The notes under the pieces are model-generated. The model ran no database searches. It saw only the letters and a program-made list of their open reading frames with translations, and was not told where the DNA came from. From Pestalotiopsis fici W106-1 (lineage: Eukaryota; Ascomycota; Sordariomycetes; Amphisphaeriales; Sporocadaceae): a stretch of 64,000 bases of DNA. The stretch lies in NCBI RefSeq assembly GCF_000516985.1, contig NW_006917097.1, forward strand, positions 1,178,001 through 1,242,000, in the 5' to 3' direction. Positions 29,857 to 48,763 of the stretch are shown here, one piece after another; position 1 is the first letter of the stretch, and each line of letters opens with the position of its first letter. The position numbers and the translations under genes are program-made.

Positions 29857-31662
29857 TTATACGTAGCGGATATCTGGTCGTGGAGGCGGGTCCATTCCGT
29901 AGCCTAGAAAGTAATCAACATGATGAGACTGCGGATAACCTTTGACAGTCATGTCATTACGATAGGCAGGATTGTGTGCCAAGGTATATAGACGAATGTC
30001 GCTTGGAATATCCGTGGTAAAAATGATCAGCTCGTCGTAATCTTCATTCGTCACGATGACCTCCTCCCGCCAGTCGCCAAGGATATCGCCAATGAATCCA
30101 GGATTGGCACCATTCGTGTTGATGGCCCCATAGGCCCATATACGCTCCAATCGTGGTAGGCTTGTAGATGGGCCTGGATTCTCCCAATCCCACTTTTCAA
30201 TGGCTCCCGTGTTGTAAAGTTCCATGAGTTCGTCGCCATCCCACCAAAGTCCAAGATGCGGCCAAGGGCTATAGTCGGTGTTGGATTCAGTGAGCTGATT
30301 TGATTTGGCATTGTAAACGCCGGAGAAGGACCAGACCTCCATACCGCGATAGTTGGGATCAATGTCGCCGGCCATGCCACGACCAACGTCAGAGATCTCG
30401 GTGCCAAAGTGCTGCCACAGCATTCGTCCTTGCCGGGCATCGTAGTAATACTCTTGGAGGAATGATGGATTGTCCTGTTGGACACCGTAGCCTTGCAACC
30501 CCTTTCGATCGGGATCCATTTTCGCAACATGCCAGCGGTCACCATGGACGATGCCACTCGGGCCTAGGGCATACCGCAGGCTTCCGTTTCCCTCGAGACA
30601 AAACCCAAGCTCCAGCACCTCGTCCACACCGTCTCCATCCACATCTATGATTCTGGTATTGTGCCCATCAGGTGTGTCTGCCTCACTGTCACGAAGCCAC
30701 TTCCAAACCAGTTTGACCGAGCTTCCATCAAATGTCCAAGCAGTCTCCATGAGATTGAAAGTCTTGTCTTCTTGTCGGTTCTTCATGTAAGAAACCAGGT
30801 GTGGCGTTTCGCCGTCCAGGTACCCAACCCCAAACCGCGCCCCCATAGGACCGTCGTCAATAAAGTCCGTGGGGATTTGAGCACTTGCGCGTAACGCTCC
30901 AGTCATGCCGTCGAGGATGGCTATGAATTGAAAATCGTCGTTGGAATTCTCAAAGGTTGTGCCATCGCCAAATACAACGCCATTTGAAATTCGTACTGCT
31001 ACTTCGGCCTTTCCGTCGCTGTCAAAGTCATAGACAGTAACGCCATCCCAATGGCCCACGTCGATTGCCGAGGAGCCAGGTGAAATATTATCCTGATTCT
31101 CGCTGTTAGGGCCCATGTTGACAACCCAAAGCCGTCTGCCACTACTGCTGTATCCTTCAAGTGTCTGCGGAGAGGTCTGACGGTCCACCACGAAATCATA
31201 CTCTCCGTCGCCATTCAAATCTCCAACCCAGACGAATTTTATCGGACCACCGGAGTGAATGGGGATTCGCACAACAGGTTCTTCAGCGTGGTCTGCCGTC
31301 AAAGTGAAGGAACCACTAGCTGCATGCTCCGTACCATCAAAGACGGGTCGTACAAAATATCGATTGGCCTTGGCGAGATCGGCAGAAGAATCAACGTAAT
31401 TAGTACCGGCAGCGAGAACTTCAGTGTTCAGCTTGGTAGCAGCGGTGCCGTCTGTAGAGCGATAGATGTTAAAGGCAATATCGTCAGGATCAAGGCCCAG
31501 CAAGCGCCAGGATACCAAGACTTCAGTATTACTCGATCGGACTGCCACTACTCCTCTACCCAAACTTTCCATTGGTCGTGTGCTACTCGTCAAGAGTGGA
31601 AACAGGAAGACGACTACCGCCATGATGGCGGTTGTCCCAAGGAAATGCGTGAACAACTTCAT
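29857..31662 (-). CDS. Rhamnogalacturonan lyase, polysaccharide lyase family 11
   Basis: An intronless gene of 601 residues. A signal peptide or signal anchor (about 1-26, hydrophobic, ending near LLTSSTRP) precedes RPMESLGRGVVAVRSS and EVLVSWRLLGLDPDDIAFNIYR, the PL11 start with its fibronectin-like first domain. An eight-bladed propeller with Ca-binding acidic loops follows (GDLNGDGEYDFVVDR, YDFDSDGKAEVAVR, DVDGDGVDEVLELG). The C-terminus FTTDIPSDIRLYTLAHNPAYRNDM and YFLGYGMDPP matches the family. The enzyme cleaves the rhamnose-galacturonate backbone of pectin rhamnogalacturonan I by beta-elimination. PL11 is mostly bacterial and less common in fungi than PL4, so a transferred origin is possible. 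Confidence 0.92.
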   Translation of the reverse strand: MKLFTHFLGTTAIMAVVVFLFPLLTSSTRPMESLGRGVVAVRSSNTEVLVSWRLLGLDPDDIAFNIYRSTDGTAATKLNTEVLAAGTNYVDSSADLAKANRYFVRPVFDGTEHAASGSFTLTADHAEEPVVRIPIHSGGPIKFVWVGDLNGDGEYDFVVDRQTSPQTLEGYSSSGRRLWVVNMGPNSENQDNISPGSSAIDVGHWDGVTVYDFDSDGKAEVAVRISNGVVFGDGTTFENSNDDFQFIAILDGMTGALRASAQIPTDFIDDGPMGARFGVGYLDGETPHLVSYMKNRQEDKTFNLMETAWTFDGSSVKLVWKWLRDSEADTPDGHNTRIIDVDGDGVDEVLELGFCLEGNGSLRYALGPSGIVHGDRWHVAKMDPDRKGLQGYGVQQDNPSFLQEYYYDARQGRMLWQHFGTEISDVGRGMAGDIDPNYRGMEVWSFSGVYNAKSNQLTESNTDYSPWPHLGLWWDGDELMELYNTGAIEKWDWENPGPSTSLPRLERIWAYGAINTNGANPGFIGDILGDWREEVIVTNEDYDELIIFTTDIPSDIRLYTLAHNPAYRNDMTVKGYPQSHHVDYFLGYGMDPPPRPDIRYV

Positions 31663-32333
31663 GTTGAATTTTGTTGAACATTCAGATATGAGGCAAGTCT
31701 GTTTGGCTCTGACAGATACCTAGCTTAGTATGAAATGGAACAGACTTTAGTATTTCAATTTCCCTTTCTACCAGGCAGCCTGCTTCACAGGTACACTGCT
31801 CTGTCGCAACCATGTGGCCGGTCCTCGGTCCAAGTCAATGCGGCAATGTGTTGCAGCCACCCTCCATTCCCTCTCCTTCCAGCCCGGAGCGCCATAGAAT
31901 AGTCCTTGTCTACAAATTTCCCCAAATTGACCGATACCATTACTCCGAGTTCTTGGAATTTATCCAGATTCTCGCACCATATTGCGTGAAAGCGAATATC
32001 TGGCGCAGAGAGGCGTACCAATCTCGCTGACTAGACATTGATGAAATGGTATGGCGAAGCGATGTGGTCCGTAGTATACAAATGTACCTAGGTAGCATCT
32101 TATCCCCACCAATCAACAATTGGTGTTGTTGGCCCTTTGATAGGCTGGAGCAACATTTCCTTGCGATAACTTGTGCAGTAATTCGCGACAATCAGTATAA
32201 GTTCAAACTCACATGTGTCTTTTTCAAGACGAGAACCATGGCCTATGACGACATGATTTATATGGGAAAGTGATGCATTGCCTGCAATGCTCGTTGTGTA
32301 GAGACTTGGAAAATAATGATATTAGGCCACTAC
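31663..32333. other. Intergenic, no gene seen
   Basis: About 670 bp upstream of the lyase and downstream of the first AtuA gene. No credible coding feature. Confidence 0.45.
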
Positions 32334-34580
32334 CTAGATTCTACCTCTCTGTAGGAACTTGTCTGGTATGTCGACATGTTTGCAGCGTATGTACTCGCAC
32401 AAATTCTTGCCCAGACTGTCAAAGCTACTCGTCGAGTTGAAGCCCCGGTCCAGGTGATCCTTTAACAAAAAGTGTACTGCGCGAATGTTGGGAAACTCGC
32501 ATCGGTCAATCTGCTTACCAACGTCATCCTTGCCCAGCAGCTCCCGGAGTTTCGAGGCACTCAGCATTGTCCGGAACCAGTCCCACTCATCGTCGTGGCG
32601 GACAAATAGGCCGAGGTTGCAGTTGGAGCTCTTGTCACCAGACCGACCGAGAACGACGTGGCCAAGCGGTGCACGGGTGGTGGGACCAAAGCAGCCGAGA
32701 TCAGCTGGGTTCGCCGTGTCGTAGCTTGGCTGCTCTCGCTCATACGTCTTGACGTTTGTCGGAGCAGGTATATCAATCACTGTTCCGTTAGGTAGATGGG
32801 CCGTCTCGTGAACAAATGTCTGTGGCATCAGGGTGACCCAGTACTCAAAGAAAGGACGGCCGATTGCCGTGCGCATGTCCACTGCCATGGTGCCACCTGG
32901 GTAGCTCTGAAGCAGGTTCTCAATGCAGTACCGAGCAAAGGAGCCACGATCGGAGTCAACAAAACTTGAGCCAGAGAGAATATCGGGATCTGCTGTCTGA
33001 GCAAAGATGCGACAGTCCACGGTCGCTTCCTCTTGGCTGCTCGGATCTTGTGGGACAGCTCCAGCAAGCATGAACTTGAGGCATGAGAACTTGTTCACTT
33101 CGTCGCCCATTCGAGCTTTGGTTTGCCGTTCTATCATGGCAAGCTTTTCGTCAATATCAAGCCCCGTCAAGTAGACTATTAGAGAAGAGTTAGTACTGCG
33201 TGCAAGATATTCCCATGTCATACGCCAACAAGGCCATTGTTGAATACGTATAGGATGTAGGGTTCGGCCACTTGCAATGAAATTCTGCCTGCCAGCCACC
33301 TTTCGCAGTGAATCCAACTAAAGTTACAGATTAGCCTTCTATGCTTGAAAGATGTCAAATCAGGTGATCACTTACCCTTTGTTGTTGCCGGTGGTGGAAG
33401 CCCCTTGACTCCAGACACGTGGACTTGGTTCTTTGCAACTTGCTTCAATACTATGTCCTCGATTGAAGCCGTCACGTCCGAGTTGTAATAGAGCGGACCT
33501 TGGATCTCATACAATAGCTGACTCGCAATTGTCGCAATCGTCACCAATCCATCTTTGCCTTTCTCCATTGAAATGACTGCTTCGCCTTTTTCGTCAATCG
33601 CAGCGATGGGATCTGTTGCTATGTGAGCACAAATTTTCAAAATAATGCACCAACACCAAGAGGCTACTCACAGCCCATGTCAGTATCATTGACTCCCAAG
33701 TCCTTGAAACCCGAGTAGTAGCCGCCAGTGGCATACGTGCTGCACTCGATTATGTGGCCAATCATCAAGGCCCCGGCGAGTTCCTTGAGGTTATCTCTGG
33801 TCCAGCCGTGCCACCACATCGCTGCTCCTACAGTCACAGAGGCATCCGCGACGCGACCGCATAGCACAATATCCGCACCACCTTCAAAGCATGCTGCGAT
33901 GCCGGTGCCTCCCAGGTAGCATTGAGCGCAAATGGGTTCAAATCCCCAGTCTTTGATGGGCTTATTTGCAGGAAGATTCAAAAAGGGCTCTCCTGCAAAG
34001 GTTGCATAAATTAGTCTATAGGTCTGTGACATTGCAATTTGGACATACTTGCCTTGACGGTAAAGCTCCAACGCCGCATCTGTTACATCATCACCATCAA
34101 CCACACCAATCTTGAGATCAACACCGTGCTTTTGGATCAGCTCCTTGACGGCTTCGGCCAAACCGTGAACGTCGCTGGCACCGGCATTCACGGCAACCTT
34201 GACACCTTTTTTGGCCAGCCAGGGAATCGCAGGGTCGATTTCTTCGAGAAAGTATGGTTCGTAGCCCTTGGCGACCATGGTCGACCCCGAGCTCATCTTT
34301 TGCTTGGCTAGACGGTCGCGCTTGTCGGAGCCTCGCAGCGTCATGTTGCATTCGGACATCCAGTCGCCGGTAATAACGTCAATGTCTTCATTCTTGGCCA
34401 TGTCATGCATTGCTCGTTTGCGGTCATAGACGCCTGCACACTGTTAATGGTGTTTTCAAAGGCCGAGATGAATGACATACCTCCGGAACATCCAGCAATC
34501 CGAACAGGCCGTTTCGGCTGCGTGCCATTGCCATTCCCCGCATTCACCCCATTTGGGGGGTCTTGACTGATTGGTGCCAT
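32334..34580 (-). CDS. AtuA-like protein A (acyclic terpene utilisation family)
   Basis: Six exons on the minus strand are inferred (34481-34580, 34053-34433, 33672-33992, 33376-33618, 33276-33317, 32334-33175), giving 642 residues. The N-terminal AtuA domain shows RIAGCSGG, VVDGDDVTDAALELY, GGADIVLCGRVADASVTVG and MWWHGW. The C-terminal AtuA-associated domain has LGHVVLGRSGDKSSNCNLG and CEFPNIRAVHFLLKDHLDRG. In Pseudomonas, AtuA belongs to the geraniol and citronellol degradation operon, but its reaction is unknown. The second intron is of GC-AG type (CAAG, then GCAAGT; 60 nt): removing it restores YRQGEPFLNLP, whereas the overlapping GTATGT donor causes a stop. The fifth intron (33176-33275) also needs a GC donor to give AEFHFYLTGLD and is less certain. 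No PTS1; it ends RGRI. Confidence 0.88.
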
Positions 34581-35178
34581 AATGTCAGATTTACTGATTT
34601 CCAGGTCAGTGAAACTAGAATGATTGAGAATAGCACAATTTGCATCGTAACATCTGGGCATACAATACCTTTGGGGGCTTATAATGGACTCACATGGTTA
34701 CACATGGACGATCCATCCATTGCGGAGTTTGATTTCCTGTCATCCAATATCTGGCCACCCCAATTATCCATTGCACTGGAGGACGCTTTTTTGGTGTTTA
34801 CCATATACCGGCGCTAATGATTCAGTATTGCCACTGCTACGAGAGCTGCATTTACGGCAGTCTATAGCCCCGCACCTGCGACTGCCAGGCTACTGGTCAG
34901 CACTTGCTATAGGTGTAGACCCGCTGTATCACCATGCCTCTTGGAGGAGCTGATTCATCATTATTGGGTTACCGGAATTGGCAGGAAATCTCATGCAATA
35001 ACTTGTGTTCACGACTCGCGATCGATAACGTAACAATAAATTGACAAGATTTGGTATTGGTCATGCTCGGGTCTGAATACTACTAGGTACCTATCTAAGG
35101 GCTGTATACCCCGATGTAAGCTGGTTGGGGATCATAGAGTGTACCAAAATAATGCAGTGACAGCCTATCATCTCAACT
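34581..35178. other. AtuA-A promoter region and ligase 3' flank
   Basis: About 600 bp. It holds one copy of the cluster motif TGAATCATTAG (34813-34823, minus orientation). No gene seen. Confidence 0.6.
34813..34823 (-). promoter_or_regulatory. Cluster motif TGAATCATTAG, copy 1
   Basis: An exact 11-mer on the minus strand (CTAATGATTCA as written), 233 bp upstream of the AtuA-A start codon. Its core TGA-A-TCA has the two half-sites of an AP-1-type bZIP element. One of four identical copies, all in intergenic promoter regions of this cluster. Confidence 0.7.
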
Positions 35179-36855
35179 CTAGAGCTTAGACCTAATGGGT
35201 TTGTCCAACGAACACAACCCGCTCCTCATTTGCACCATCTCCTTTCGCAAGATCTTGCCTGTCGGATTCTTCGGCAGTGCCTTGATCTGCCACACGCCGC
35301 CTCTCAATTTCTTGTAGCCACTGACTTGACCATCAACTGCTGTCTGAACCTCGCGAAGCGCTTGCAGTACCTTGACATCTCCATTGAAGCCTTCCTTGAG
35401 AATGACCCATGCCGTAGGCAACTCGGTCAGCTGGCTTTCATCCCAGATTGCGCCGACGCCACCCTCCACCACATTTGGATGCGAGTTCAAGTAGCTTTCC
35501 AGCTCTGCTGGGGAGACTTGGAAGCCTTTGTACTTGATCAACTCCTTGGTTCGACCCACCACGCTGATTCTGCCGGCGGCGTCAATCGTGCAGACATCAC
35601 CAGTATTGTACCAGCCCGGCATTGGAAACCCCTTTTCTGTAGCTTCGTCATTGAACGCATACCCTCTCGCGATATTCGGACCACGTAGCCATAGCTCGCC
35701 GGGTCCCCCCTCGTGAGTGTCCTCAAAACTGCCTTCCTTCTTGAGACACGCCTCGATATTGGGCAGAAGCCTTCCCACAGCGCCTTCGGGGACATCCTCT
35801 CCGAGCTTCTGATAGGCAACGTAGCCGGCAGCCTCTGTCATTCCGTAGACTTGAATGAGACGCCACGGCGCGCGCTGATAGAGCCGCTCCAACAATTCCT
35901 TTTTCAGCGGCGCGCCTCCGACATTGATGATCTTTGCGTGGGAAAAGTCGTATCGGGACGTCACGTCCGAATTGGCCAATATGAGGACCACACTGGGGAC
36001 CCCTTGGAAACTGGTCGCCTGGTTCGATCCTACCAAGGCGGCAAACTGCTCGAGATTGTACGACGGCATGGCGTGATGCAGCATACCGGTCCAGGGACCA
36101 AGGAACAGCGGCATGGTGGTCATGGCAATATGGGCCCAGGGCGTAAACGCGACCGTCTTTGCGCCCGGGTGAAATTGCTTGGGATCATGATGGTACAGTT
36201 GGTAACAATTGGAAACAAAATTGTAGTGTGTTAGCTCGACTCCCTTGGGCTTGCCGGTCGTACCGGAGCTGAGGTGAATGGAGGCTAGACGCTTAGATGT
36301 GTCATTCCAGTGAGGAATTGGAAGAGGCTTGTCCGTCCAAAAGTCATCCGGGACATGTCTCAGTCCGGGTGATTTTTGGACTATCGTCAACAAGTTTGGC
36401 TTTGACCAATCGATGCCGGAACCGATGAGTTCTTCCCGACCCACTTCTATCGCCCCTCTGACCACCGACGCGATTTCGCCATAGGCAACGACAAATTCTG
36501 GTCGAGAAACGGCCAAGGCATGACCTATTTCTGCAGCTTTGAGTGCATGGTTGACTGGACAGACGACGCCCCCGGTCCATAGAATGGAATGAAATATCTC
36601 TAGAAAGTCGACACTATTCGGAAGGATAATGGCCCATCTGGCCTGGTCTGGGGGCTTGAACGCAGCATAAAGGCCACTTGCAATTCTTCCAGCACGAAAC
36701 CGGAGCTGGCCAATCGTAATGCTTCGGTTGGTGAGATTGTCTTTTGCAATGAGATGAGACTCTGGTAAGCTTTCTGCGTACGCAGAGCTGTGCAGCAGTT
36801 CTGTGAGATTCTGATCAAGAGGAATAGAGATTGAGTCAGAGCGATAGATCTTCAT
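35179..36855 (-). CDS. Peroxisomal AMP-forming acyl-CoA ligase (4-coumarate-CoA-ligase-like)
   Basis: An intronless gene of 558 residues from the Met at 36855; the frame is open to an ATG at 36894 (571 residues), and I prefer MKIYRSDSISIP because relatives begin this way. ANL-superfamily motifs are complete: A3 SSGTTGKPKGVELTH, A5 YGMTEAAGY, A7 YNTGDVCTID, A8 GRISVVGRTKELIKYKGFQVSP and A10 PKNPTGKILRKEM with catalytic Lys. The enzyme activates a carboxylic acid to the acyl-AMP and then the CoA thioester. The C-terminus is SKL, a canonical PTS1. It shares a 600-bp divergent promoter with AtuA-B. The acid cannot be read from sequence; aromatic or branched acyl substrates are typical of this group. 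Confidence 0.93.
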   Translation of the reverse strand: MKIYRSDSISIPLDQNLTELLHSSAYAESLPESHLIAKDNLTNRSITIGQLRFRAGRIASGLYAAFKPPDQARWAIILPNSVDFLEIFHSILWTGGVVCPVNHALKAAEIGHALAVSRPEFVVAYGEIASVVRGAIEVGREELIGSGIDWSKPNLLTIVQKSPGLRHVPDDFWTDKPLPIPHWNDTSKRLASIHLSSGTTGKPKGVELTHYNFVSNCYQLYHHDPKQFHPGAKTVAFTPWAHIAMTTMPLFLGPWTGMLHHAMPSYNLEQFAALVGSNQATSFQGVPSVVLILANSDVTSRYDFSHAKIINVGGAPLKKELLERLYQRAPWRLIQVYGMTEAAGYVAYQKLGEDVPEGAVGRLLPNIEACLKKEGSFEDTHEGGPGELWLRGPNIARGYAFNDEATEKGFPMPGWYNTGDVCTIDAAGRISVVGRTKELIKYKGFQVSPAELESYLNSHPNVVEGGVGAIWDESQLTELPTAWVILKEGFNGDVKVLQALREVQTAVDGQVSGYKKLRGGVWQIKALPKNPTGKILRKEMVQMRSGLCSLDKPIRSKL

Positions 36856-37207
36856 TGTTCGTGATGCATTTGCGACTGAGCCAGCTTCTGTCACGATTCT
36901 GCACGTTTTGGGAGAGTTGCCCCTAAAGCCTCACTCGGCGAAAACATTGTACCTTGATTGGGCTCTCATTCGACTTTCTCATATTGGATATTATCTTCCT
37001 GCTTATCAGTCTGTGAACCCCAATGATAGCCACCCCGTCGCACGCGGCCAGAGATATCCTCATGCTTGGACGCTTGCTGATCGACAGCAATCAGGTGATA
37101 TAGTACTATTTTCTTGGACGGTCTCTGCATAATCCATGATCCAATGAAAGTGTGTCAGTATCGCTCCAATATCGATCCGGGGTCCCCGCATGTGAATGCG
37201 TATTCGC

Positions 37208-37222
37208 CTATATGCCGCAGTG
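37208..37222 (+). repeat. CTATAYGCCGCAGTG element, copy 1
   Basis: CTATATGCCGCAGTG, differing from the second copy 159 bp away by a single C/T. It abuts the cluster motif at 37221. A candidate second regulator site in the ligase/AtuA-B promoter. Confidence 0.55.
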
Positions 37223-37231
37223 AATCATTAG
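37221..37231 (+). promoter_or_regulatory. Cluster motif TGAATCATTAG, copy 2
   Basis: An exact 11-mer, 225 bp upstream of AtuA-B and 366 bp upstream of the divergent ligase, so it could serve both. Confidence 0.7.
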
Positions 37232-37366
37232 TACATTGATCCATGCCAGTGCATCAGTCGCTCAGGAAGCCGGAACCATTTTCCGAGAATACCATGTCGC
37301 GGCAGTCGGAAGTACCATTTGGGCACAATAGAGAATCATTCGATACAATTGGTCAGTAACATTGCT

Positions 37367-37381
37367 CTATACGCCGCAGTG
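37367..37381 (+). repeat. CTATAYGCCGCAGTG element, copy 2
   Basis: CTATACGCCGCAGTG, 75 bp upstream of the AtuA-B start codon and matching copy 1 at 14 of 15 positions. Confidence 0.55.
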
Positions 37382-37455
37382 TCAACACCATTCTAAATGA
37401 GAAGCCAACACGAATTGAGGTCTATGAACAGGTTCATACTGACCGTGACGACAAG

Positions 37456-39342
37456 ATGAATCCATCTCACCCAACAAAAGAAAAGCAACACTGCCCGATT
37501 AGAATTGGCAATGCATCCGGAGCCATTGGCGATGGCATCGATCAAGTATACAAGCTGGCAAAGTCTGGCAAAGTCGATGCAATTACAGCCGACTACCTGG
37601 CCGAGTTCAACATTGCATGGAAAGCAATCGAGCTTTCTCAGTATCCTGACCTAGGCTACGAGTCCAACTTCCTCGAGCAGCTGGCATGGGAGAATGGTGA
37701 TGCTGCTCGCATTGTAGCCGAAAAGCGGATCAAGATTGTCCATGATGGCGGGGCTCTCAATCCAAAGGGCTTGGCCATCAAGGTCGACGAATATTTCAAG
37801 AATCTGGGGATACTGGACGTCAAGGTCGCTGCTGTCACTGGTGATGACGTGACAGAGAGGCTTCGAGACAATCAGCTTGGCACTATCAAGCATCTTGATA
37901 AAGCTGGAACGCTTCTTGATGCAAGGAAAGAGGACATACTTGCAGCAAATGCATACACTGGTCACTCTGGCATAGTTCGTGCCCTAGAAGAGGGCGCCGA
38001 TATTGTCATTTGTGGGCGATGCTGCGATGCAAGCCCTGTGACGGGCCTTGCGTCTTGGTGGCATGGCTGGGGCCACACCGAGTACGACAAGCTTGCCAGT
38101 AGTCTCATGGCTGGGCACCTCATTGAATGTGGTGCATACGTGACGGGCGGAAATTTCTGCGGTGCTCAGGAAATTGAACAGCTTCATCATGTTGGATACC
38201 CAATTGCGGAAATCTCAGAAGACGGAGCTGTCATCATCACCAAACCGCCGAATACGAACGGAGCGGTCACCGTCGACACGTGCAAGGCACAACTACTTTA
38301 CGAGATACAAGGCCCAATTTATCTAAATCCCGATGTGGTGGCCGACATTGAACAAGCGCACCTTGAACAAGTTGGCAAGGACCGCGTAAGACTGTCTGGC
38401 ATCAAAGGCTCCGCACCGCCGCCTACGACAAAGCTTGCAGTGTGTCTGTTGGGTGGCTGGCAAGCAGAGATATCAGGCTATTGTGCTGGCCTCGACACAG
38501 ACTTCAAGTTCAAACTCATAAAAGACCAAGTCCAACGCCAGATCGATCCTGATGATTTTACGACGTTTAGCATAGAAAAGTACGGCGCACCTAGCTCGAA
38601 TCCATTGTCTCAAGCAGAATCGACAATCCAGATTCGCTTGTTTGCTCAGTCGCCCAAGAAGGAGGCCATGATGCAATTCCGACGAGCCATCTTTTACAAT
38701 GGCATGCAAGGATACTGCGGACTTCATCTGTCCATGGACTGGCGCACAATGGAGCCCAAGCCATACGTCAAGTATTTTCCTGCCTTGATTCCACAATCAG
38801 AGATTCCGCTACAAGTGGAGATGATGGGAACAGAGAAAAGGGCTATTGATGTAGAGGCTCGACAGCGCTTTGACTGTGCCCCTACAGCTCCGACTCAAAG
38901 GAATTACGAGGTCAAAAGTCCAATCGATATAAATGCCAGCTGGCCTCAAGCTACACTAAGGCCTCTGGGCGATCTCGTGTTTGCCAGAAGCGGTGATAAG
39001 GGAGGAAACGCCAATGTAGGGTTTTGGGTGAGGGATGAGAGGGCCTGGCCCTGGTTGCAATCTTTTCTCAGCAGTGACAGATTGATTGACCTGCTGGGAG
39101 ACGATTGGAACAACAAATATGACATTGAGCGCTGCGAGTTTCCATTCTTACAAGCCGTTCACTTTGTAGTCAAGGACATATTGCAGGACGGCGTTAGCAG
39201 CTCATCGATACTGGACGGCTTTGGCAAGAGTTTCGGGGAATTCCTCAGGGCTCGACACGTTGCTCTCCCAAATGAACTTGTTGAAATGGAGGATGATCTG
39301 AGGATACAATCTCGAAAGCACCATTTTGAACCTAGACTATGA
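37456..39342 (+). CDS. AtuA-like protein B (acyclic terpene utilisation family)
   Basis: An intronless gene of 628 residues with the same two-domain layout as AtuA-A. The AtuA domain is at about 15-370 (IRIGNASGAIGDG, AAVTGDDVTERL, GADIVICGRCCDASPVTGLA, WWHGWGHTEYDKL, GHLIECGAYVTGG, KAQLLYEIQGPIY). The C-terminal domain is at about 500-610 (LGDLVFARSGDKGGNANVG, CEFPFLQAVHFVVKD). The biochemical role of the family is unknown; the constant Asp/Gly-rich motifs suggest ligand or nucleotide binding, which is inference. The C-terminus PRL is only a weak PTS1 variant. It is divergent from the ligase. The absence of introns, against five in AtuA-A, argues that the two copies are not a recent tandem duplication. 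Confidence 0.93.
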   Translation: MNPSHPTKEKQHCPIRIGNASGAIGDGIDQVYKLAKSGKVDAITADYLAEFNIAWKAIELSQYPDLGYESNFLEQLAWENGDAARIVAEKRIKIVHDGGALNPKGLAIKVDEYFKNLGILDVKVAAVTGDDVTERLRDNQLGTIKHLDKAGTLLDARKEDILAANAYTGHSGIVRALEEGADIVICGRCCDASPVTGLASWWHGWGHTEYDKLASSLMAGHLIECGAYVTGGNFCGAQEIEQLHHVGYPIAEISEDGAVIITKPPNTNGAVTVDTCKAQLLYEIQGPIYLNPDVVADIEQAHLEQVGKDRVRLSGIKGSAPPPTTKLAVCLLGGWQAEISGYCAGLDTDFKFKLIKDQVQRQIDPDDFTTFSIEKYGAPSSNPLSQAESTIQIRLFAQSPKKEAMMQFRRAIFYNGMQGYCGLHLSMDWRTMEPKPYVKYFPALIPQSEIPLQVEMMGTEKRAIDVEARQRFDCAPTAPTQRNYEVKSPIDINASWPQATLRPLGDLVFARSGDKGGNANVGFWVRDERAWPWLQSFLSSDRLIDLLGDDWNNKYDIERCEFPFLQAVHFVVKDILQDGVSSSSILDGFGKSFGEFLRARHVALPNELVEMEDDLRIQSRKHHFEPRL

Positions 39343-39824
39343 TGGAAACAAGCAAAATTTTCTTGATATGATTACCAATTCCTGTGCTTGCTGCCTGTCA
39401 AAGAAACTATTGCAGTGGCTGAATTGTACAAGTATCCCAGCTTGTATGGTGACTTACGATGAATCGCAATTTAGATAATTAAATCGACTGAGAAAAAAAC
39501 ATGAAATGTTATTTTCTTTACGTCTAGAATGTCTTGTTTGGTCCCAAGGATTCCATCAGTGAGTACTCCTATCGTACGGGGATATTGGGCCGAGGTAGTG
39601 CCTGTAGGTGTGGGAAGGTTAGTGGTTCAACCACTAAGACCTCGCCCCAGTCCTTCCTTGCGACACTGTCCACCGACGTATACCACGCTATAAAGTCTCC
39701 AGGGACATCATTATAGCACATCTTGTCCTGCTGCCCTCATCAGTGCACACTACAACACGACTTGTTCTGCATTACCAGCTTTCAACATTGCCGCGAAAAA
39801 GTCAACTAAAGTCAAGACTCGAGA
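39343..39824. other. Hydratase promoter region
   Basis: About 480 bp. A 19-bp palindrome is at 39619-39637. No exact cluster motif was found; the closest is a half-match TGAATC at 39460-39465. Confidence 0.55.
39619..39637. promoter_or_regulatory. Perfect 19-bp palindrome upstream of the hotdog hydratase
   Basis: TTAGTGGTTCAACCACTAA: two perfect 9-bp arms around a central C, 188 bp before the hydratase start. Symmetric sites of this size suit a dimeric regulator; as RNA it would have a loop too small for a stable hairpin. Confidence 0.5.
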
Positions 39825-40898
39825 ATGGCTCAAGATCGTCCAGTCAAGAATGCTTCTGGTCGCTACGATAATGTCGACTTTAGCAAAGCCGCCGGTTTCA
39901 GATACCCTCCCATCAAATGCAGCTACAACCGCCGCGATGTTTTGTTATTTGTGAGCCAGACCAAAACGCCTGTCATATGGACACCATCTAAACTCTCCAC
40001 AGGCCAATGCGATTGGAGCGCAAAAAGACGAATTGCATTTTCTCTACGAACTGCATCCCAAGTTTGCTGCATTTCCAACCTTTCCAATCAATCTTGCATT
40101 CAAACAGACGGACCAGGATGTATTTGACTTTATTGCTCGGACTGTGAGCGCTGATGTCCCCGGGGTACCACCATTCGATGCGCAGAGGTCCGTCGATGGC
40201 GAACGGGGGATCAAGATCTTGCGACCATTACCGGTCAGCTCAGAGGGGCTCGACTTGGAAATTCGTAACCAAGTCGTTGGAGCCTATGACAAAGGTTGGA
40301 CCTGACACTCATTCTGTTCAGAGCGCATCACTGACATTCAGTACCGACAGGCGGGGCCATGATTTTGGAGACTGAAGGAGAATTAGTTGACGTCAAGACG
40401 GGACTCGTCTATGTGAAACTCACATCTACCGCTTTCGGCATTGGCCAAGGAGGATACGGAGGGCCGAGAGGACCGTCAAAGCCAAATGCACAGATCCCGA
40501 ACCGCTCACCAGACACCATCCACAACTTCAAGACTACACCCGAGACGGCTCTGCTGTACCGATTGTGCGGCGACTATAACCCCATGCATGCAGATGATGA
40601 GTTTGGGCAGCGTGCTGGATTCAAGGGCTCGATCTTGCAAGGCTTGGGCACCTGGAATATTGCAGCACATGGTCTCTTGAAGGAGCTGGGTAGCTCGGAT
40701 CCGACCAGGCTCATGGCATACAGCGCTCGGTTCAAAAGTGTTGTGTATCCTGGTGATGAGTTGGAAACACGAATGTGGGTTGTTGGAACAGACAATGGCT
40801 GTGATGATATTCTGTTTGAGACAATCGTCAAAGGCGACGGTAGAGTGGCACTCTCCAACGGACAGGCCAAGCTAAAGCAGAGCGGCAGCAAACTGTAG
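39825..40898 (+). CDS. Peroxisomal double-hotdog enoyl-CoA hydratase 2 (MaoC-like)
   Basis: Three exons (39825-39950, 40003-40294, 40351-40898; introns of 52 and 56 nt) give 321 residues. The N-terminal hotdog has YNRRDVLLFANAIGAQKDEL and FAAFPTFPINLAF. The C-terminal MaoC half has the hydratase-2 signature YRLCGDYNPMHADDEFGQRAGFKGSILQGLG with the catalytic Asp and His. This fold hydrates trans-2-enoyl-CoA to the (R)-3-hydroxyacyl-CoA, as in the hydratase part of peroxisomal multifunctional enzyme 2. The protein ends SKL (PTS1). Lying downstream of AtuA-B on the same strand, it would supply a hydration step of opposite stereochemistry to the crotonase-type neighbours, or act on a different intermediate. 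Confidence 0.92.
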
Positions 40899-40971
40899 TG
40901 AGATATACTTGGAGAGGAACATTGCAAATAAGTTCATGCTTCTATATCCAGAATACAGATCTATGGGTTGA

Positions 40972-41871
40972 CTATAAATGAGAAGGTCTCCAGACTGGAT
41001 CCCTCTTTTCGCGATACGCCGCCAGGCCTTCAGTAGCATTGGGACTTTTTAGCATTGCCTCGGCGTATATCTCCTGGCCTCGCATAGTCGCTCGACTGAT
41101 GCCCGTTTCCCAAGCCTCTCTAGCACCGAGGCGAGATATGATGACACTATCAGGACACAACGCCGCAATCTCGGATGCATAGTCGAGTGTCCGCTCAAGC
41201 AGTTTTTCCTGCGGCACAATCTCCTTGACCAGGCCCCATTCCACTGCTTCCTTGACAGTGAGAACCCGCCCAGTAAGACACAAGTCCATGGTTCTGTGGT
41301 TTCCGAATAAAACCATGCAGCGAGGTAGTGCTCCTGCAAGTGCCACGACACCACGAAGGACTTCGGGGAGGCGGAATGTCGCATTTGGCGAGGCAAATAT
41401 GACATCCGAGTTCAACACAATTTCAAAGCCTCCGCCTGTCCAAAGTCAGCCGGTGCACTCGCAAGATTCAAGAGGACTACTACCATGCGCGTGGCCATTG
41501 CACGCGATAATGATGGGTTTTTTCCCAGTCCGATTCGCCATTCCGCCAAACCCACCCTGTGGATATTCATGCGCGACAGAGTTGGTGTTTTTGATGTCCA
41601 ACCGCTGCTTCAGATCCATGCCGGCGCAAAAGGCCTTGTCCCCTGCGCCGGTGAAGACGGCACACCGCAGCTCGGGTTCCGAGTCATACCACCTCCATAG
41701 GAAGCTAAGTTCAATAGTCGCCTCTACTGGCAAACAATTTCTAAATTCCGGGCGGTTGATGGTGACGAGAAGGACATGTTTTCGTGGAAACGATACTAGA
41801 CTGTGTTGCAAGGCAGGATATGGGCTCTGAATCCATTCGGGCACCGGATTCGTTGTTACAGGGCTTGCCAT
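40972..41871 (-). CDS. Peroxisomal enoyl-CoA hydratase/isomerase (crotonase) 1
   Basis: Two exons on the minus strand (41484-41871, 41436-41483 spliced out as intron, 40972-41435) give 283 residues. Crotonase motifs: HVLLVTINRPEFRNCL, AFCAGMDLKQR (first oxyanion-hole region) and ACNGHAHGGGFEIVLNSD (second), then LPEVLRGVVALAGALPR with the hydratase-type Glu. It ends SHL, an accepted PTS1 variant. An ATG at 41904 is in frame but lengthens an unconserved lead. The gene converges with the hydratase (74 bp apart) and diverges from crotonase 2. Hydratase, isomerase and lyase reactions are all possible in this superfamily; AtuE of the terpene pathway is one relative. Confidence 0.92.
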
Positions 41872-42525
41872 GGTGGAACGGTTGTGGTAAACGACTCCTC
41901 GCACTATGATTGATAGATTCTTGGGTATGCAACCATGTCCAACCAGTGGACAAAAGTCTAATAGTTCATACTCGGTCTTGCCTGCTGCTATGCATGGCTG
42001 TTTCCCGGCTCCGACGTTCGGTCAACGTTTGCCGTCTTGCAGGTTCGCACATGTAGGACGACGACTGCCTTCACCTCCATGGATAGAGATTGGCTAGATC
42101 CTTAGTGTTGCGACCCTGATAGCGCTGAATCATTAGACTGGCCCATGTCTTACTCTAGGTTTGCGGGGTATACATCAATAGACGAGGATTCTGCATAATG
42201 GTAAATGATTGCCGAAATTATGGAGCTAGAACTGTACCAGGGGTATGATGAGGGTTGCATATGCGGGCTGAAAATACAATACGCTGCTGCAGGGATGAAT
42301 CAAGCGACAAAGACTAGATGGTATGTATTGTCGAATGGATGGCAACTGGCAAAGGCTTTAGGTTTTCAGATAGGGCTCTGGTTGGTCACTGTTGTTCACG
42401 TAGATATTGTCAAGCTTTGATGACTGTTGCTAGACTCTGCTGAACCAAAGACTGGTGACAATAAAGTGAATACCCAAGAATCGTGCCATCCACAGTATCT
42501 AACAGTCTTTGCCGCAATTTTCAGA
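41872..42525. other. Divergent promoter of the two crotonase genes
   Basis: About 650 bp with one cluster motif copy (42126-42136). No gene seen; the frame at 42205-42420 is not convincing. Confidence 0.6.
42126..42136 (+). promoter_or_regulatory. Cluster motif TGAATCATTAG, copy 3
   Basis: An exact 11-mer, 255 bp upstream of crotonase 1 and 390 bp upstream of crotonase 2, in their shared promoter. Extended match CTGAATCATTAG with copies 1 and 4. Confidence 0.7.
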
Positions 42526-43408
42526 ATGCATCCTACAGAAACACAACCGCCTCCGACACCGACATTCCTCAAGCTTTCATATCCAGCGCCACGAGTCCTT
42601 CTGATCCGCATGGATCGCCCTAAGGATCTCAATGCCATGTCAACTACGGCGCAATGGGAAATGGACTCGGTATGGAAATGGCTGGACCTAGAGCCCAAGT
42701 TGAGTGTCGCAGTCATTACGGGCACAGGTCGAGCCTTTTCCGCGGGGGCTGATCTCAAGGAGTGGAATAATTCCATGTCAGACGATGCAAATCCCAAGAA
42801 TCGAATGGGCAATGCGCCCGCATTCAAACCATTGTCACGGCGGTTAGGAAAAAAGCCCGTCATTGCCGCCGTCAATGGGCTGGCTATGGGAGGTGGCTGC
42901 GAGTTTATTGTCAACTGTGGTAGGTTTGCTCTCAGCGCAGTCGAATGGGATTAGTTCTAATCGCATGTCAGATCTGGTCGTGGCCGCCGAGGATGCTTAT
43001 TTTGGGCTTCCCGAAGTGAAACGAGGACTCGCTCCGATAGGCGGTGCTCTGCCGCGTCTGATAAGAACCATTGGCCTGCAGCGGGCGTCGGAGTTCGCGC
43101 TGACGGGAAGAAAAGCAAGTGCGCAAGAGTTGTTTGCGTGGGGCTTGGTGAACAAGGTGGTTCCCAAGGAGCAAGTCGTGGATGAGGCCGTCAGGTACGC
43201 AAAAGACATTGCCGCAAATAGCCCAGATGCTATCATATGTACGAGAGCTGGGTTGAGGCAGGGCTGGGAGACGGCTTCGGTTGAGAGAGCAGTGGAGATT
43301 ACACTAGAAAGAGAGTTTGCCGAGCTTCAGAGGGGAGAAAACATCCTCGAAGGATTAAAGGCATTCTCAGAGAAGCGAGAGCCGGCGTGGAAAGGAAGTC
43401 GCCTCTAA
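42526..43408 (+). CDS. Peroxisomal enoyl-CoA hydratase/isomerase (crotonase) 2
   Basis: Two exons (42526-42919, 42972-43408; 52-nt intron starting GTAGGT) give 276 residues. Motifs: RVLLIRMDRPKDLNAMS, AFSAGADLKEW (first oxyanion region) and AVNGLAMGGGCEFIVNCD (second), then FGLPEVKRGLAPIGGALPR. The PEVxRG...GALPR block is shared with crotonase 1, so the two are related paralogues rather than distant superfamily members. It ends SRL, a PTS1 variant. The start is the ATG at 42526; the frame is open upstream to 42427, but that lead looks like 5' untranslated sequence. Confidence 0.92.
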
Positions 43409-44009
43409 AATTCTCTATTCGCCTGTATCATCTCGCGAGTTGGCTCGAGCGGATTACGAGTTGTAGAAAGATAAGCATAGGTTTAGACGTGTTCACATAG
43501 TATAAAATGTCTAGCGACGCTGTCTTTGAATGTAAAGCATGTTTAGCCTATGGCTTTACGTGTATCATACATGATGCCACAGTCGATAGTATGCAATCAA
43601 AAAGGTCTGATAAGAGTAGGGCTATTCAGTGCCTCTAAGAAGCCTTGGTCACACACCAAGCCTCCCCATGCGTATTCGCTTCTTGTTGCCAGCCGGGTCA
43701 ATTACTAATGATTCAGCATCACCCTTGCACCAGTCCAGAAAGACCTCCCCCTTGACTATTAGATGGGTAGGAATCTTGTTCCGTGTGGCTCAACTTCCCC
43801 GCCAGATCTAGTAGATCAGTCAAGTGGGGGTAGCATGCCTGTTTCATTCGTATAGTACGGTCCTCTTCCTGCATCTTGGAAGCTTACGTACATGGTACCC
43901 GACAATAAGACGGCAGTTATCCTATGCAAGTTCTCTCCAGAGTCTGAAGATTCGTCTCTCGATCCCAAAAGCACCATATTTTATCCCCAAAACTACCATT
44001 ATCTTTGAA
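43409..44009. other. Promoter region of the cluster MFS gene
   Basis: About 600 bp with one cluster motif copy (43705-43715). No gene seen. Confidence 0.6.
43705..43715 (-). promoter_or_regulatory. Cluster motif TGAATCATTAG, copy 4
   Basis: An exact 11-mer on the minus strand, 295 bp upstream of the MFS start codon. Flanking bases also match copies 1 and 3 (CTGAATCATTAG). Confidence 0.7.
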
Positions 44010-46001
44010 ATGGAATCTAGAAAGGAAGAAGCCAGAGCTGCGCAGACGGAAGAAATCGAAAAGATACAAGAAGGGCACAACAATGAAGACGATGCTTCTT
44101 CCATCAGTCCGGAAGCCCTGGGAAATGACTTGCCGAAAGGCTACTTTTACTCGCTACAATTTCTCGGTGCCATGACTGTAAGTGGCGTGAGTGCACATAC
44201 CGATGGCCATGTCTAAATCTAATTAGGGCTTCTGTCTGTCTGCAATCTCAGCCTACATATTCCTCCTCTTTCCGACAAACATTCTCACGTACATTAATGC
44301 AGACATTGGTCCAAGCCCGTACATCTCCTGGGTCAACATTGCAAGAACCCTAGCACTGTCTTTTACTTATACCATTCTTGGACGACTATCAGACTTGTTT
44401 GGGCGACGGTGGTTCTTTATTGGCGGCAACATTGTCGCTCTACTCGGCATCATCATCTGCGCTGTAGCCCGGAATGTTAACACGCTGATAATCGGCAGCG
44501 CCGTGTATGGTCTGGGTGAGACTGTTCAACTCAGCTTCAATGTTGCGGTTGGCGAGTTGGTCCCAAACAAGTACCGGCCAATGGTTCTGTCATTCATCTT
44601 TCTTACCAATGCACCGTTTGCGAGTTTTGGTCCAATCATGGGTAAGAAAAAGCAGCTCTTTCTAATCGATCCGAGCCCAGCAGAGTGCTGATCTGAATAC
44701 AGCACGAAAGTTTGTCGAGATTCCGTCCCTTGGCTGGCGATGGTGTTACTACATCAACATTATTGCCGTTGGCCTCGCAATCGTGCTTTTATACTTGTTT
44801 TATAATCCGCCCACGTTTGAATTATTGCACGAACGCAAGGGTAAGCGGGAGATTCTAAAAAGGCTTGACTGTAAGTGAGGACAGAGTGTCATCAAAGTGA
44901 TTCGGGATTCTGATGGCGCTTAGACCTTGGAATCTTTTTGTGGACTGCCGGTCTCACCTTGTTCCTAATGGGAGTCTCTCTCGGCGGGAATATCTACCCC
45001 TGGGCATCAGCACCCGTCATTTCCACCATCGTTATCGGTATCGTGTTGCTGATTATATTGTTCATCTGGGAGACCGTTGCCAATCTGGAATATCCTGCAA
45101 TTCCAGTCAAGTTCTTTCGCAATCGTGGCTTCATGAGTTTGGTCTGCTGTGCTACAGTTGGAAGTGTGAGTGTACACCACGATATACTAGAAAGTCTACT
45201 AAGACACACCAGATGACCTACTACTCGGCTGTACTGCTATGGCCCCAACAAGTACAGGCCCTCTTTACCAAGGACATAATCGAAGCTGGGTGGCTTTCGG
45301 TAGGTATGGCTTGTCTCCTTCTGTCGACATGAGACTGACAGAGGCGACAGTGTACAGTCGGAAGTGCAACCGCCCTGGGTCAGATATGCGCCGGTGCCAT
45401 TGTCAAATGGGGAGGCAACGTTCGATACTGGATCATATTTTCCACATTTGCCATGGTTGGGTTCGTGGCGGCTCTGGCAGCCGTTACTCCAGACACTAGG
45501 AATATGGCCGTCGCTCTAGTCATTCTGGGTCCATTCTTTGTTGGATTCATCGAACTCGCATCTCTGGCTCTCGCTCCTCTCTTCTGCAAGCCTGCAGATA
45601 TCGGTTTGGCCTCGGGGCTGCTTGCTTCCATCAGGTCTGCCGGGGGCTCGATTGCGGTGGCAGTGTACAGTACGATACTGTCGAATCGTATCAAATCGAC
45701 CATACCCGAGATTGTAGGCCCAGCTGCAGTGGCAGCAGGTCTTTCAGAAAGTGAGGTAGGCGCACTGGCAACAGCCATCGTTGGCGGTAAGCTGTCGTCA
45801 TTTTCTGGATTGACATCGTCTGTTAGCGCTGCTGTCAGTGCAACGCTTCCCACGGCATACGCACAGGCATTCAAGACAGTATATTTGGCAAGTTTGGGAT
45901 TTGGTGGGATTGCAATTGTCGGGTGCCTATTTTCCAAAGACGCACAGAAGCATTTGACGGACAGGGTCGACCGAAGGATGCAGAACGGCGAGGTTGATTA
46001 G
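44010..46001 (+). CDS. MFS transporter 1 (14-helix DHA/TRI12-type)
   Basis: Six exons (44010-44177, 44227-44641, 44703-44870, 44924-45165, 45213-45299, 45351-46001; introns of 47-61 nt, total phase consistent) give 576 residues. An acidic cytosolic N-terminus is followed by many hydrophobic helices. MFS motif A is GRLSDLFGRRW (about residue 105); VGELVPNKYRP and TVGSATALGQ resemble the fungal TRI12/siderophore-type drug:H+ antiporters. Expected in the plasma membrane. Its promoter carries the cluster motif, so uptake of the pathway substrate or export of an intermediate is inferred. Confidence 0.9.
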
Positions 46002-47508
46002 ACTAGGTGCACTCTACCATGTGCTAGACTCCATGACTCTTGGGTTTTTCCGGCATACCGACCTCCATAACAGCAATACCATGCCTCATACAAACACCCC
46101 AAGATAGAGACCATGCTAGAATCCGAACCAAAGCCCGTATCTGTGGCCCCATTCGCTATGCGCTGGACGTTTGGCTTAAGTGCTGTACTGCTGGCCGTCT
46201 CTCGTTCTGGTACGAGGCAAGGGCGCTGCGATGCTTGGCAAGGACCAAACACGGCAGACTCGGTTGTGGATTCTTCCAGAACTAGAGACTTTGTTAGCAA
46301 CAGGTTGAGATGGATGCAAAATAAAGAGAAAGAGGAAGATAAGAACGAGAAAGCAAAAACTTCATACCTCATGTCAATGACCCTTGGCTATGACTGGAAA
46401 TGACGGCCTGACTCTAAGCTGGGGAATACGTCGAGTCTTGTAAACAAGTATGCTCATTGCGAGAATCAAGAGGAGGACAATGACGACATCCATGTCAATG
46501 GTAATCAGTGTGTAGGCGCAAGCATCGCGGTTGATCACCTTCCATGCACCTTTGCTTGCCACGTTATTGATGGTGACGATGGAGTAGTGGTCAGCGTCGC
46601 ACTTGAACATTTTGCCTGTATTTCGCTTAAAGTGTTTTGCTTGTATGTCTTGTCTCTTTCGCTTTGTGATTCCCGTAGTGTTTTGTGGTGGCAGCGGTTT
46701 GTTTGCTGAGGCTCTTGCTTGTGGTGTTGTTTGCTGAAATATTTGGGACTTGGAGTTATCCATCAATTGAATAGGTCTTCGTTCCTTCTCCCACTCGTTT
46801 CAAACGTGGATTGTTTGTGGAAAGTGCGTCTCGGCCATTTTCAGTCTCAGGTTTTGGTGTCTTCCATAATTAATTTTTGAACGCTCTACAACTCCTCGCA
46901 AACCGGAATTGAGTGGCAGGAAGGCCGATTGAAATCCACCTTGATGTATCCCGAGGTCGTGTCATCGTTGAGCTCAATTTCATAATGGCTTCAGTGCTTG
47001 TGTTCTTTGATTGACAAGTACTGCCAACTAGAAATCGTACCATGGGCGCTCAAGATACCTCACAGTTTTCCCAAGTACCTCATTTTTAAGAAGGCGTCGT
47101 CAATAGGATCGATCTGGATTGTATCCATCGGTAATTTGGTGAATTTCCTGCCCAGATGTATTGTGCAAGTCCTTGAGCAAGTATCGATGACAGGTACATG
47201 GGTACTGTCCACTTGGGGAGTGTGCCTCTGCCCCCCCAGCACTATTTGGTTCTAGCTCAGCACCCCGCGGCGCCAAACACTTCAATTTGTAGCGGTCATC
47301 CCTCGCAAACTCGAGCAGTGCACCTGCTCTTGGACACTACGAGTGTGATGGAACCTGGCTCAATCAATAATTCATCCTCTTGTTGTTGGTTGGGAAGAAT
47401 ACATTGAAGAGTATCAAGCGCGCTCGCTCGATCTCGACATGCCTCGTGTGCGCCATCAATGCTCAGACATTGGTACTTGAATGGTTATAAGCTTGATACT
47501 GTTGCGAA
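46002..47508. other. Intergenic upstream of the bZIP gene
   Basis: About 1.5 kb. The only candidate is the 130-codon minus-strand frame at 46374-46766. No exact cluster motif was seen. Confidence 0.45.
46374..46766 (-). CDS. Possible small single-span membrane protein
   Basis: A 130-codon open frame with a Gln/Asn-rich N-terminus, a basic stretch (KRKRQDIQAKHFKR) and one clear hydrophobic helix (DMDVVIVLLLILAMSILVY) followed by positive charges. I recognise no family, and no splice signals or promoter strengthen it. It may be a chance frame. Confidence 0.25.
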   Translation of the reverse strand: MMDNSKSQIFQQTTPQARASANKPLPPQNTTGITKRKRQDIQAKHFKRNTGKMFKCDADHYSIVTINNVASKGAWKVINRDACAYTLITIDMDVVIVLLLILAMSILVYKTRRIPQLRVRPSFPVIAKGH

Positions 47509-48638
47509 ATGTCACAGCCAACAGCCGACCAAGGTGTGCACTTTTCGCTCAGCACAGGCAGGGACCAAGATGTCTCGCAAGCCAATGTTGAATTGCATAG
47601 AAAGCGGGCTCGCGACCGAAAGTCGCAGCAGGCGATGCGAGACCGGCAGAGGGGTCTGATCCAGAGCTTGACTGAACGAGTCGACTTCCTCACCCGCACA
47701 CTAGATGGCACTCTGAAAGATGTCGGCCTGCTCGAGTCAAAAGTCATCACGCTCGAGGCCGAGAATGCGCAGCTTCGTGCTCAGAACGCCGCCTGGCAGC
47801 TGGGTCTACTTGGTCGTGCTGAGCCTACAGAAACAGTAGCGCTCAAGTCCCTAGAGCCTTGGACCATACCTCCTCGAAATTCACCGCCGTGTTGTATCGC
47901 CGATAACATTGTTCAGAATTTCATTCTATCCAAGCGTGCCGAAATGGCGTCAGTACGACCCAACGAGATACACGGCAGCACAAGACTAAAACCAAACCCC
48001 GCTTCTCTCCTCTCCAAGCAGCATGGGACGGTGGATGAAGTGAGCAACGTGGTTGCTGATCTTGTGCGGTCATATCCAGAAATCGAGTCCCTTCCAAAAC
48101 AAGTTGCTGTATTTTACATCATGGGGCTACTGTCCAAGGTCAGTGCACGCAAATCTGCATCAAGTTCATCTTGCGACTCTAGGTTGACCTATAACAAGTG
48201 GCTCATTTATCTCGACAAGGAAAGTTGGGATCTCATGCCCGAGTGGCTACGGCCGACCGAGTGTCAGCTTTCGACGGTTCATGCCGCGTGGGTTGACCGA
48301 ATTCCATGGTAAGAACAAATCAGTAAAGAAATCTGGCGTGGTGATGAGCTAAGTTGAACAGGCCCAAGGCAAGGAATTATCTAGTACAGCACTCTGACAT
48401 AACGTTGGATGATTTTGCATCTACATACAGCTCTAGCTTTCAGATCAAGTGGGATTTCGATCCTAGCCATGTGCTCATTACGATCGACTCGAACAAGGAT
48501 GAGCCAAAGCAAGTGCTTTTCAATCCCGTGTTTGAAAGTGAGATACGCCAACTCAAGAATTGGACCGTCGAGGAGACATTCCGACAGCGTTTTCCCGAAA
48601 TTGCAACGCTTATTGACAAGGATACAATCTTGGTCTAG
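47509..48638 (+). CDS. bZIP transcription factor with DUF3425 domain
   Basis: Two exons (47509-48308, 48362-48638; 53-nt intron) give 358 residues. The basic region RKRARDRKSQQAMRDRQRG runs into a leucine-zipper-like helix (LIQSLTERVDFLTRTL to LESKVITLEAENAQL). The region from about residue 120 to the end is the fungal DUF3425 domain (IESLPKQVAVFYIMG, PEWLRPTECQLSTVHAAWVDRIPWPKAR split here by the intron). Such proteins are nuclear, dimeric DNA binders, often pathway-specific. It is the only regulator in the 32-50 kb region, and the motif repeated in the cluster promoters has a TGA-N-TCA core. I therefore infer, but cannot show, that it controls the cluster. Confidence 0.9.
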
Positions 48639-48763
48639 ACAAATCGTGTAGTTGAACCAAATATGCATTTGTAATCTGTGCCTGGAAAGAAATCAAGTGA
48701 ATTGACATGAGGAAACCAGGCTATCGTGAGTTGACCCAGTCCATAACTTCACAATTGCTCCTG

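Follow-up and report, generated by a model that had tools for sequence, protein, structure and literature searches.

A recurrent 11-bp promoter word in an AtuA gene cluster of Pestalotiopsis fici W106-1, with a linked DUF3425 bZIP protein as its candidate reader

Here, we report a short word, TGAATCATTAG, shared by promoters of a nine-gene cluster in the ascomycete Pestalotiopsis fici W106-1. The stretch analyzed (the window; 64,000 nucleotides, both strands) covers positions 1,178,001 to 1,242,000 of contig NW_006917097.1 (NCBI RefSeq assembly GCF_000516985.1). Exactly four exact copies of the word lie in the window, and we are highly confident that it is a real shared promoter element. We moderately favor a regulatory role specific to this cluster, with the cluster's own basic leucine zipper (bZIP) protein, which carries a DUF3425 domain, as the most likely reader. 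Judging from the protein families, the pathway probably activates and degrades a carboxylic acid, with the ligase as the putative activating enzyme and the hydratases acting on the product. The genes of the cluster (window positions) are as follows.

32334-34580, minus strand: AtuA-A (PF07287; Pfam), several exons
35179-36855, minus strand: AMP-binding coenzyme A (CoA) ligase (PF00501, PF13193; Pfam)
37456-39342, plus strand: AtuA-B (PF07287 and PF23544; Pfam)
39825-40898, plus strand: MaoC-type hydratase (Pfam), promoter without the site
40972-41871, minus strand: crotonase 1 (ECH; Pfam)
42526-43408, plus strand: crotonase 2 (ECH), with two exons assigned by eye
44010-46001, plus strand: major facilitator superfamily (MFS) transporter, TRI12-like (Pfam)
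47509-48638, plus strand: bZIP carrying a DUF3425 domain (PFICI_10019) and proposed as the regulator, no site in its promoter
48764-50220, minus strand: FAD-binding oxidase (PF01565), pieced together from open frames with an uncertain start, no exact site in its promoter

An original prediction, made by eye from the sequence, had named four exact copies. The number and sites B, C, and D stood, while site A proved to lie one base higher than the 34813-34823 first given; an exhaustive count also confirmed that the window holds no fifth copy. The four sites and two partial matches are as follows.

34814-34824, minus strand: site A, TGAATCATTAG, 233 bp upstream of the AtuA-A start codon
37221-37231, plus strand: site B, TGAATCATTAG, divergent promoter, 365 bp from the CoA ligase and 224 bp from AtuA-B
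42126-42136, plus strand: site C, TGAATCATTAG, divergent promoter, 254 bp from crotonase 1 and 389 bp from crotonase 2
43705-43715, minus strand: site D, TGAATCATTAG, 294 bp before the ATG (44010) of the MFS gene
34951-34957, no strand assigned: second TGA-W-TCA core, TGATTCA, not the full word, AtuA-A promoter
42296-42302, no strand assigned: second TGA-W-TCA core, TGAATCA, not the full word, crotonase promoter

All four copies are intergenic, and their nearest start codons (224 to 294 bp away, at AtuA-A, AtuA-B/ligase, the crotonases, and MFS) place them in cluster promoters, as first proposed. Five gaps in the interval from AtuA-A to MFS bear promoters (a count that excludes a sixth gap of 73 bp between two gene ends), and four of them hold a site; these promoter-bearing gaps make up 31% of the DNA there. 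Downstream lie two AtuA genes, the CoA ligase, two crotonases, and the MFS gene, that is, six of the seven genes in this interval and six of the nine in the cluster. Each promoter holds one copy, a single copy being shared in each divergent promoter, and there is none at the promoter of the proposed regulator itself. Beyond 11 to 12 bp the flanks are unrelated, so the four sites are not copies of a longer repeat; together with their mixed orientation, this fits a protein-binding DNA site. A longer word, CTGAATCATTAG, is common to three of the four sites, as had been noticed earlier, site B having G before TGA; it has seven copies genome-wide. TGA is preceded by C or G in 4/4 cluster sites versus 4/18 other genome copies (post hoc P of about 0.01), a hint that the full site may be 12 bp, S-TGAATCATTAG (S, C or G).

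The core TGAATCA (TGA-N-TCA) is present in all four sites. TGANTCA cores number 23 in the window, and the six in the four site-bearing promoters all have A or T at the center; no further TGA-W-TCA core was found in the MaoC, bZIP, or oxidase promoters. A mismatch scan likewise bore out that these three promoters (upstream intervals of our choosing) lack an exact copy. Nothing closer than three mismatches to TGAATCATTAG lies in the MaoC (39343-39824) or bZIP (46750-47508) promoter, and the best match in the oxidase promoter (50221-50820) is at two mismatches. When 7- to 10-mers were scanned across seven promoters, the 8-mers found in most of them were pieces of TGAATCATTAG, against a background biased in that most of its pieces hold TGAATCATTAG. 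As side observations, unrelated 9-mers (e.g., AGATATTGG) occur at one mismatch in all seven cluster promoters (34581-50820; a raw count), and the ligase/AtuA-B promoter carries a 15-bp direct repeat, CTATAyGCCGCAGTG (37208-37222 and 37367-37381, 14/15 alike), the first copy of which overlaps the start of site B at its end.

Dinucleotide shuffles of the window held a mean of 0.06 exact copies (standard deviation, 0.24), near the 0.03 per 64 kb originally estimated, and 0/100 reached four. A search of the window with up to one mismatch returned the same four copies and no one-mismatch copy (20 further words lie two mismatches away); shuffles averaged 1.62 at this setting and 8/100 reached four, so the signal is the exact identity of the copies. 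Exact copies of the word number 22 in the genome (51,735,587 bases on 20 contigs), 4 in the cluster and 18 elsewhere. With up to one mismatch there are 749, and the 727 inexact ones amount to 22.0 for each of the 33 neighboring 11-mers, so the 18 copies elsewhere are background. Commonness throughout the genome, an outcome that the original prediction had set against itself, was not found: the word is ordinary elsewhere (22 copies in 51.7 Mb), and its excess is confined to the cluster's 8.9 kb, where four copies compare with 0.003 expected from the genome rate.

Chance recurrence of one of very many possible words deserves weight insofar as this one was picked after the fact, is ordinary in number outside the cluster, and, at one mismatch, would not be rare at four per window. 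We therefore counted the commonest complex 11-mer of any sequence in 10-kb pieces, with simple words removed, which allows for a word picked by eye. The cluster gave four; 25 control pieces gave two (22/25) or three (3/25), and 100 dinucleotide shuffles gave two (95) or three (5), neither ever reaching four. The control pieces were largely nonrandom, 18 having been chosen for holding the word once and 2 adjoining one of these, while the other 5 were tiles of the window, one containing the bZIP and oxidase genes. Under a first-order model, which leaves aside real repeats and gene families, the expected number of 11-mers of any sequence occurring four times in 10 kb is ~1.2e-4; over ~5,170 genome pieces of 10 kb, roughly 0.6 such words would arise. 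The placement of all four copies in intergenic DNA contributes a further factor of ~0.009 and brings the genome-wide expectation to <0.01, so that we regard chance as very unlikely. Even less probable, in our judgment, is a dispersed repeat, transposon footprint, or RNA-level element. The exact identity of the copies would suit such an origin, as would the overlap of site B with one end of the 15-bp repeat, but a repeat would not be expected to lose all similarity at 11 to 12 bp, and the word is antisense in AtuA-A and MFS, the two single-gene promoters, an orientation that an RNA element could hardly tolerate. The proposal of a shared cis-element of one cluster is well supported; the exact copies, their excess over chance, and their promoter positions are observed directly.

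Several extensions were tried and rejected. A regulon reaching beyond the cluster through the 18 other exact copies was rejected because their number is at background; single real targets among them are possible. Seven of the 18 lie within an open frame of at least 140 codons. Ten open reading frames from 9 of the 18 loci were searched against Pfam (two P450s, an MFS protein, a Zn-cluster factor, a zinc-binding dehydrogenase, a helicase, an abhydrolase, part of a DNA ligase, an Hce2-domain protein, and one without a family), and no pathway partner was evident among them. CTGAATCATTAG also lies ~75 bp before the start of another MFS gene (L030:5000), the product of which hardly aligns with two exons of the cluster MFS, and an exact copy of TGAATCATTAG at C9:532740-532750 (L029:7741) is ~2.1 kb from an AtuA paralogue, with another, nearer open reading frame between them. 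Five paralogous AtuA loci (~0.9 to 1.5 kb upstream covered) contained no exact copy and just one copy at one mismatch, which lies past the 3' end of one of the genes. TGAATCATTAG is not associated with AtuA genes in general.

Elsewhere in the window, a rhamnogalacturonan lyase family 11 gene (29857-31719) adjoins the AtuA cluster. A NACHT/NB-ARC gene lies in 5814-8390, where its open frame enters a gap of 100 N in the assembly (8286-8385), and 27084-29363 holds a HET-domain gene; both are of kinds found among fungal incompatibility genes.

In the proposed regulator, the first exon matches PF11905 (DUF3425) above the cutoff (30.3 versus 27.1), two bZIP models falling just below theirs, and PF11905 is carried by many bZIP homologues among the matches listed. 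The best 120 of 160 homologues were examined, and the basic region was readable in 116 (4/120 were unreadable by the pattern used). All 116 have Asp at the usual bZIP Asn position (D-x7-R), as DxxSQxxMR in 110 and DxxAQxxMR in 6; the canonical N-x7-R of AP-1-type bZIPs is found in none of the 116. These residues presumably correspond to those of Gcn4 and Pap1, an equation that draws in part on passages of PMC7261193. In an alignment of 30 sequences, the window's own included, conservation is highest in the basic region, with KRARDR and later Q, A, M, R, and R invariant. The genome has 15 further DUF3425 matches; the nearest paralogue (L041, C8 near 2472900) likewise has Asp (SSDREAQRAIR, read by eye), so the Asn-to-Asp change is wider than this cluster. 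Passages of PMC9223689 describe the bZIPs of Fusarium fujikuroi as all N-x7-R, and passages of PMC4046829 describe oomycete bZIP classes with other residues at the Asn position. No relative of the protein was found in the PDB at E values up to 1. Separately, PFICI_10019 carries ~20 residues missing from the other 29 aligned homologues (window, 48139-48198); with GT at its start and a possible AG at its end, the corresponding DNA is probably an in-frame intron that the annotation retains.

Linkage in other fungi was compared through homologue lists for AtuA-B (120 entries), the bZIP (118/120), and crotonase 2 (119/120), with a shared contig as a proxy for linkage. Contigs shared among the listed homologues numbered 25 for AtuA-B and bZIP, 32 for AtuA-B and crotonase 2, and 14 for all three. 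Named fungi of four classes account for 20 of the 25 AtuA-B and bZIP contigs: Exophiala viscosa is a eurotiomycete, Tricladium varicosporioides a leotiomycete, and Elasticomyces elasticus and Lophium mytilinum are dothideomycetes, and the remainder we take to be Sordariomycetes and Dothideomycetes. The two genes are close in 14/25, comprising eight named species by locus tags 4 to 9 apart (e.g., FZEAL_1610/1604, NLU13_2513/2522, and LTR10_022300/022296) and six further contigs of 2.7 to 112 kb. These close cases include Sordariomycetes and one dothideomycete; in the eurotiomycete and the leotiomycete, the genes were seen only on the same contig (4.6 and 1.2 Mb). The near-consecutive tags of the eight species include triplets (FZEAL_1610/1607/1604, E0L32_003417/003420/003422, and ACHAQA_006221/006218/006216), and among the homologues listed, AtuA is fused with MaoC or with an AMP ligase in three gene models.

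The AP-1/Gcn4 site is TGA(C/G)TCA. TGAATCATTAG resembles it in having two TGA half-sites around one central base and differs in its A/T center and in four further fixed bases on one side. A closer parallel in arrangement is the Api-box (TGACGTGA, 8 bp) of the apicidin F cluster of F. fujikuroi, associated with Apf2 (passages of PMC4109984). Two features used for the Api-box and Tox-box are found for TGAATCATTAG as well: enrichment in cluster promoters over the genome, and presence in most cluster promoters with a single copy in divergent ones. As far as those passages go, both systems have one short AP-1/CRE-like word, none at the promoter of the regulator, and an in-cluster regulator with a bZIP-type basic region. 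They differ in that Apf2 is a bANK protein without a zipper, apicidin F is the product of a secondary-metabolite cluster, and only the regulator gene lacks the Api-box in F. fujikuroi, whereas three genes lack the site here. A further difference lies in the promoter mutation and the conservation in F. semitectum that back the Api-box.

For the protein, the nearest parallel is Yap8 of Saccharomyces cerevisiae, which has a 13-bp site, Y8RE (TGATTAATAATCA), with outer TGA/TCA (passages of PMC3865217 and PMC7261193). Its basic region, LxxSQxxFR, departs from NxxAQxxFR at Asn and Ala, and it has very few targets (passages of PMC7261193). As described there, Yap8 shares with the cluster bZIP a long site in a divergent promoter and a basic region changed at the same Asn and first Ala (to Ser); among the readable homologues above, Asn is changed in 116/116 and Ala in 110/116. 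It differs in having Leu and Phe where the cluster bZIP has Asp and Met, and the Yap8 passages do not mention DUF3425. The Yap8-type pattern (outer TGA/TCA around a TTAATAA-type core) was not found in TGAATCATTAG and its flanks, read by eye. Among DUF3425 proteins, A7370 of Curvularia lunata, whose 1,972 homologues were termed functionally uncharacterized, binds ACGGCTGAC (passages of PMC13113314). It is likewise a DUF3425 bZIP and metabolic-cluster activator with an asymmetric element containing CTGA; it differs in that, per the same passages, the element belongs to the promoter of another regulatory gene, A7370 itself is encoded outside the cluster, and chromatin immunoprecipitation gave 5,305 peaks. 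In Aspergillus nidulans, the DUF3425 gene AN2115 lies within a salicylate-induced catabolic cluster and is upregulated with it; the substrate and enzymes are different, and the passage describes no site (PMC7842363).

In the reading that we prefer, TGAATCATTAG, perhaps S-TGAATCATTAG, would be a double-stranded protein-binding site joining four promoters and six genes in one regulon. A dimer of the DUF3425 bZIP would sit on the TGA-A-TCA core, contact the fixed TTAG beside it as well, and switch the pathway on, rather than repress it, when the substrate or a CoA intermediate, the putative inducer, is present. From the sequences compared, the local bZIP is a plausible binder, given the TGA-A-TCA core of the sites, the additional TGA-W-TCA cores in the promoters of sites A and C, and the frequent linkage of bZIP and AtuA-B genes in other fungi. 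Several findings weigh against this. The MaoC, oxidase, and bZIP promoters are without the site; the word is asymmetric, invariant, and longer than an AP-1 site, which is unusual for a bZIP homodimer; and with 18 further genome copies at background, the 11-mer alone would not define a regulon. Asp in place of Asn makes a prediction of plain AP-1 binding unsafe. A7370, the one DUF3425 bZIP with a mapped site that our literature searches found, uses a different word in the passages cited above, a difference that counts only if DUF3425 proteins share one site; ToxE and Apf2 are similar and nevertheless differ in theirs (passages of PMC4109984). Finally, the listed bZIP and AtuA-B homologues are on different contigs in seven named species (Neonectria ditissima, N. 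magnoliae, Trichothecium roseum, and Xylariaceae FL1651, FL1272, FL1019, and FL0255). Linkage is thus common without being universal, and relatives from the subclass of the host order lack it; these seven species lowered our confidence in the local bZIP slightly.

It is possible, and to us the most substantial competing account, that the element is real and has another binder: a general bZIP of the AP-1/Gcn4 or Yap1 type, the local bZIP paired with a different bZIP as a heterodimer, or a non-bZIP factor that reads the asymmetric CTAATGA half. The asymmetry of the site, the Asp of the local protein, its absence from linkage in the seven species, and the 15 further DUF3425 matches all leave room for such a factor. 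The two extra TGA-W-TCA cores without TTAG would be usable by a plain AP-1-type factor, and site D overlaps TTACTAA, which we take to be a Yap1-type word. In A. nidulans conidia without NapA, the Yap1 orthologue, the genes listed as changed also include AN10086, of the DUF1446 (AtuA) type (a passage of PMC5371717, the direction of change not seen). A general factor would, however, be expected to raise the count of the word elsewhere, where it is at background, and it is the local bZIP gene that is often linked.

More speculatively, and with considerable doubt, the cluster bZIP may represent a Pezizomycotina class in which DxxSQxxMR replaces NxxA(A/Q)xx(S/C/F)R, reading the long asymmetric S-TGAATCATTAG and serving a single locus. 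This would be a second, independent evolution of Yap8-like narrow specificity, with an AtuA catabolic cluster under one dedicated switch. A search of the open-access literature found no title or abstract on this site or this bZIP; control of a cluster as a unit is of a known kind, and the site itself is probably new. In the literature consulted, we met no stated function for the AtuA/DUF1446 family. The locus offers a cheap test case, with one word of 11 to 12 bp, one linked bZIP, and six target genes. Binding by that protein, if proven, would assign a target sequence to an unusual class of Asp-type bZIPs and open a way to the substrate of a widespread cluster.

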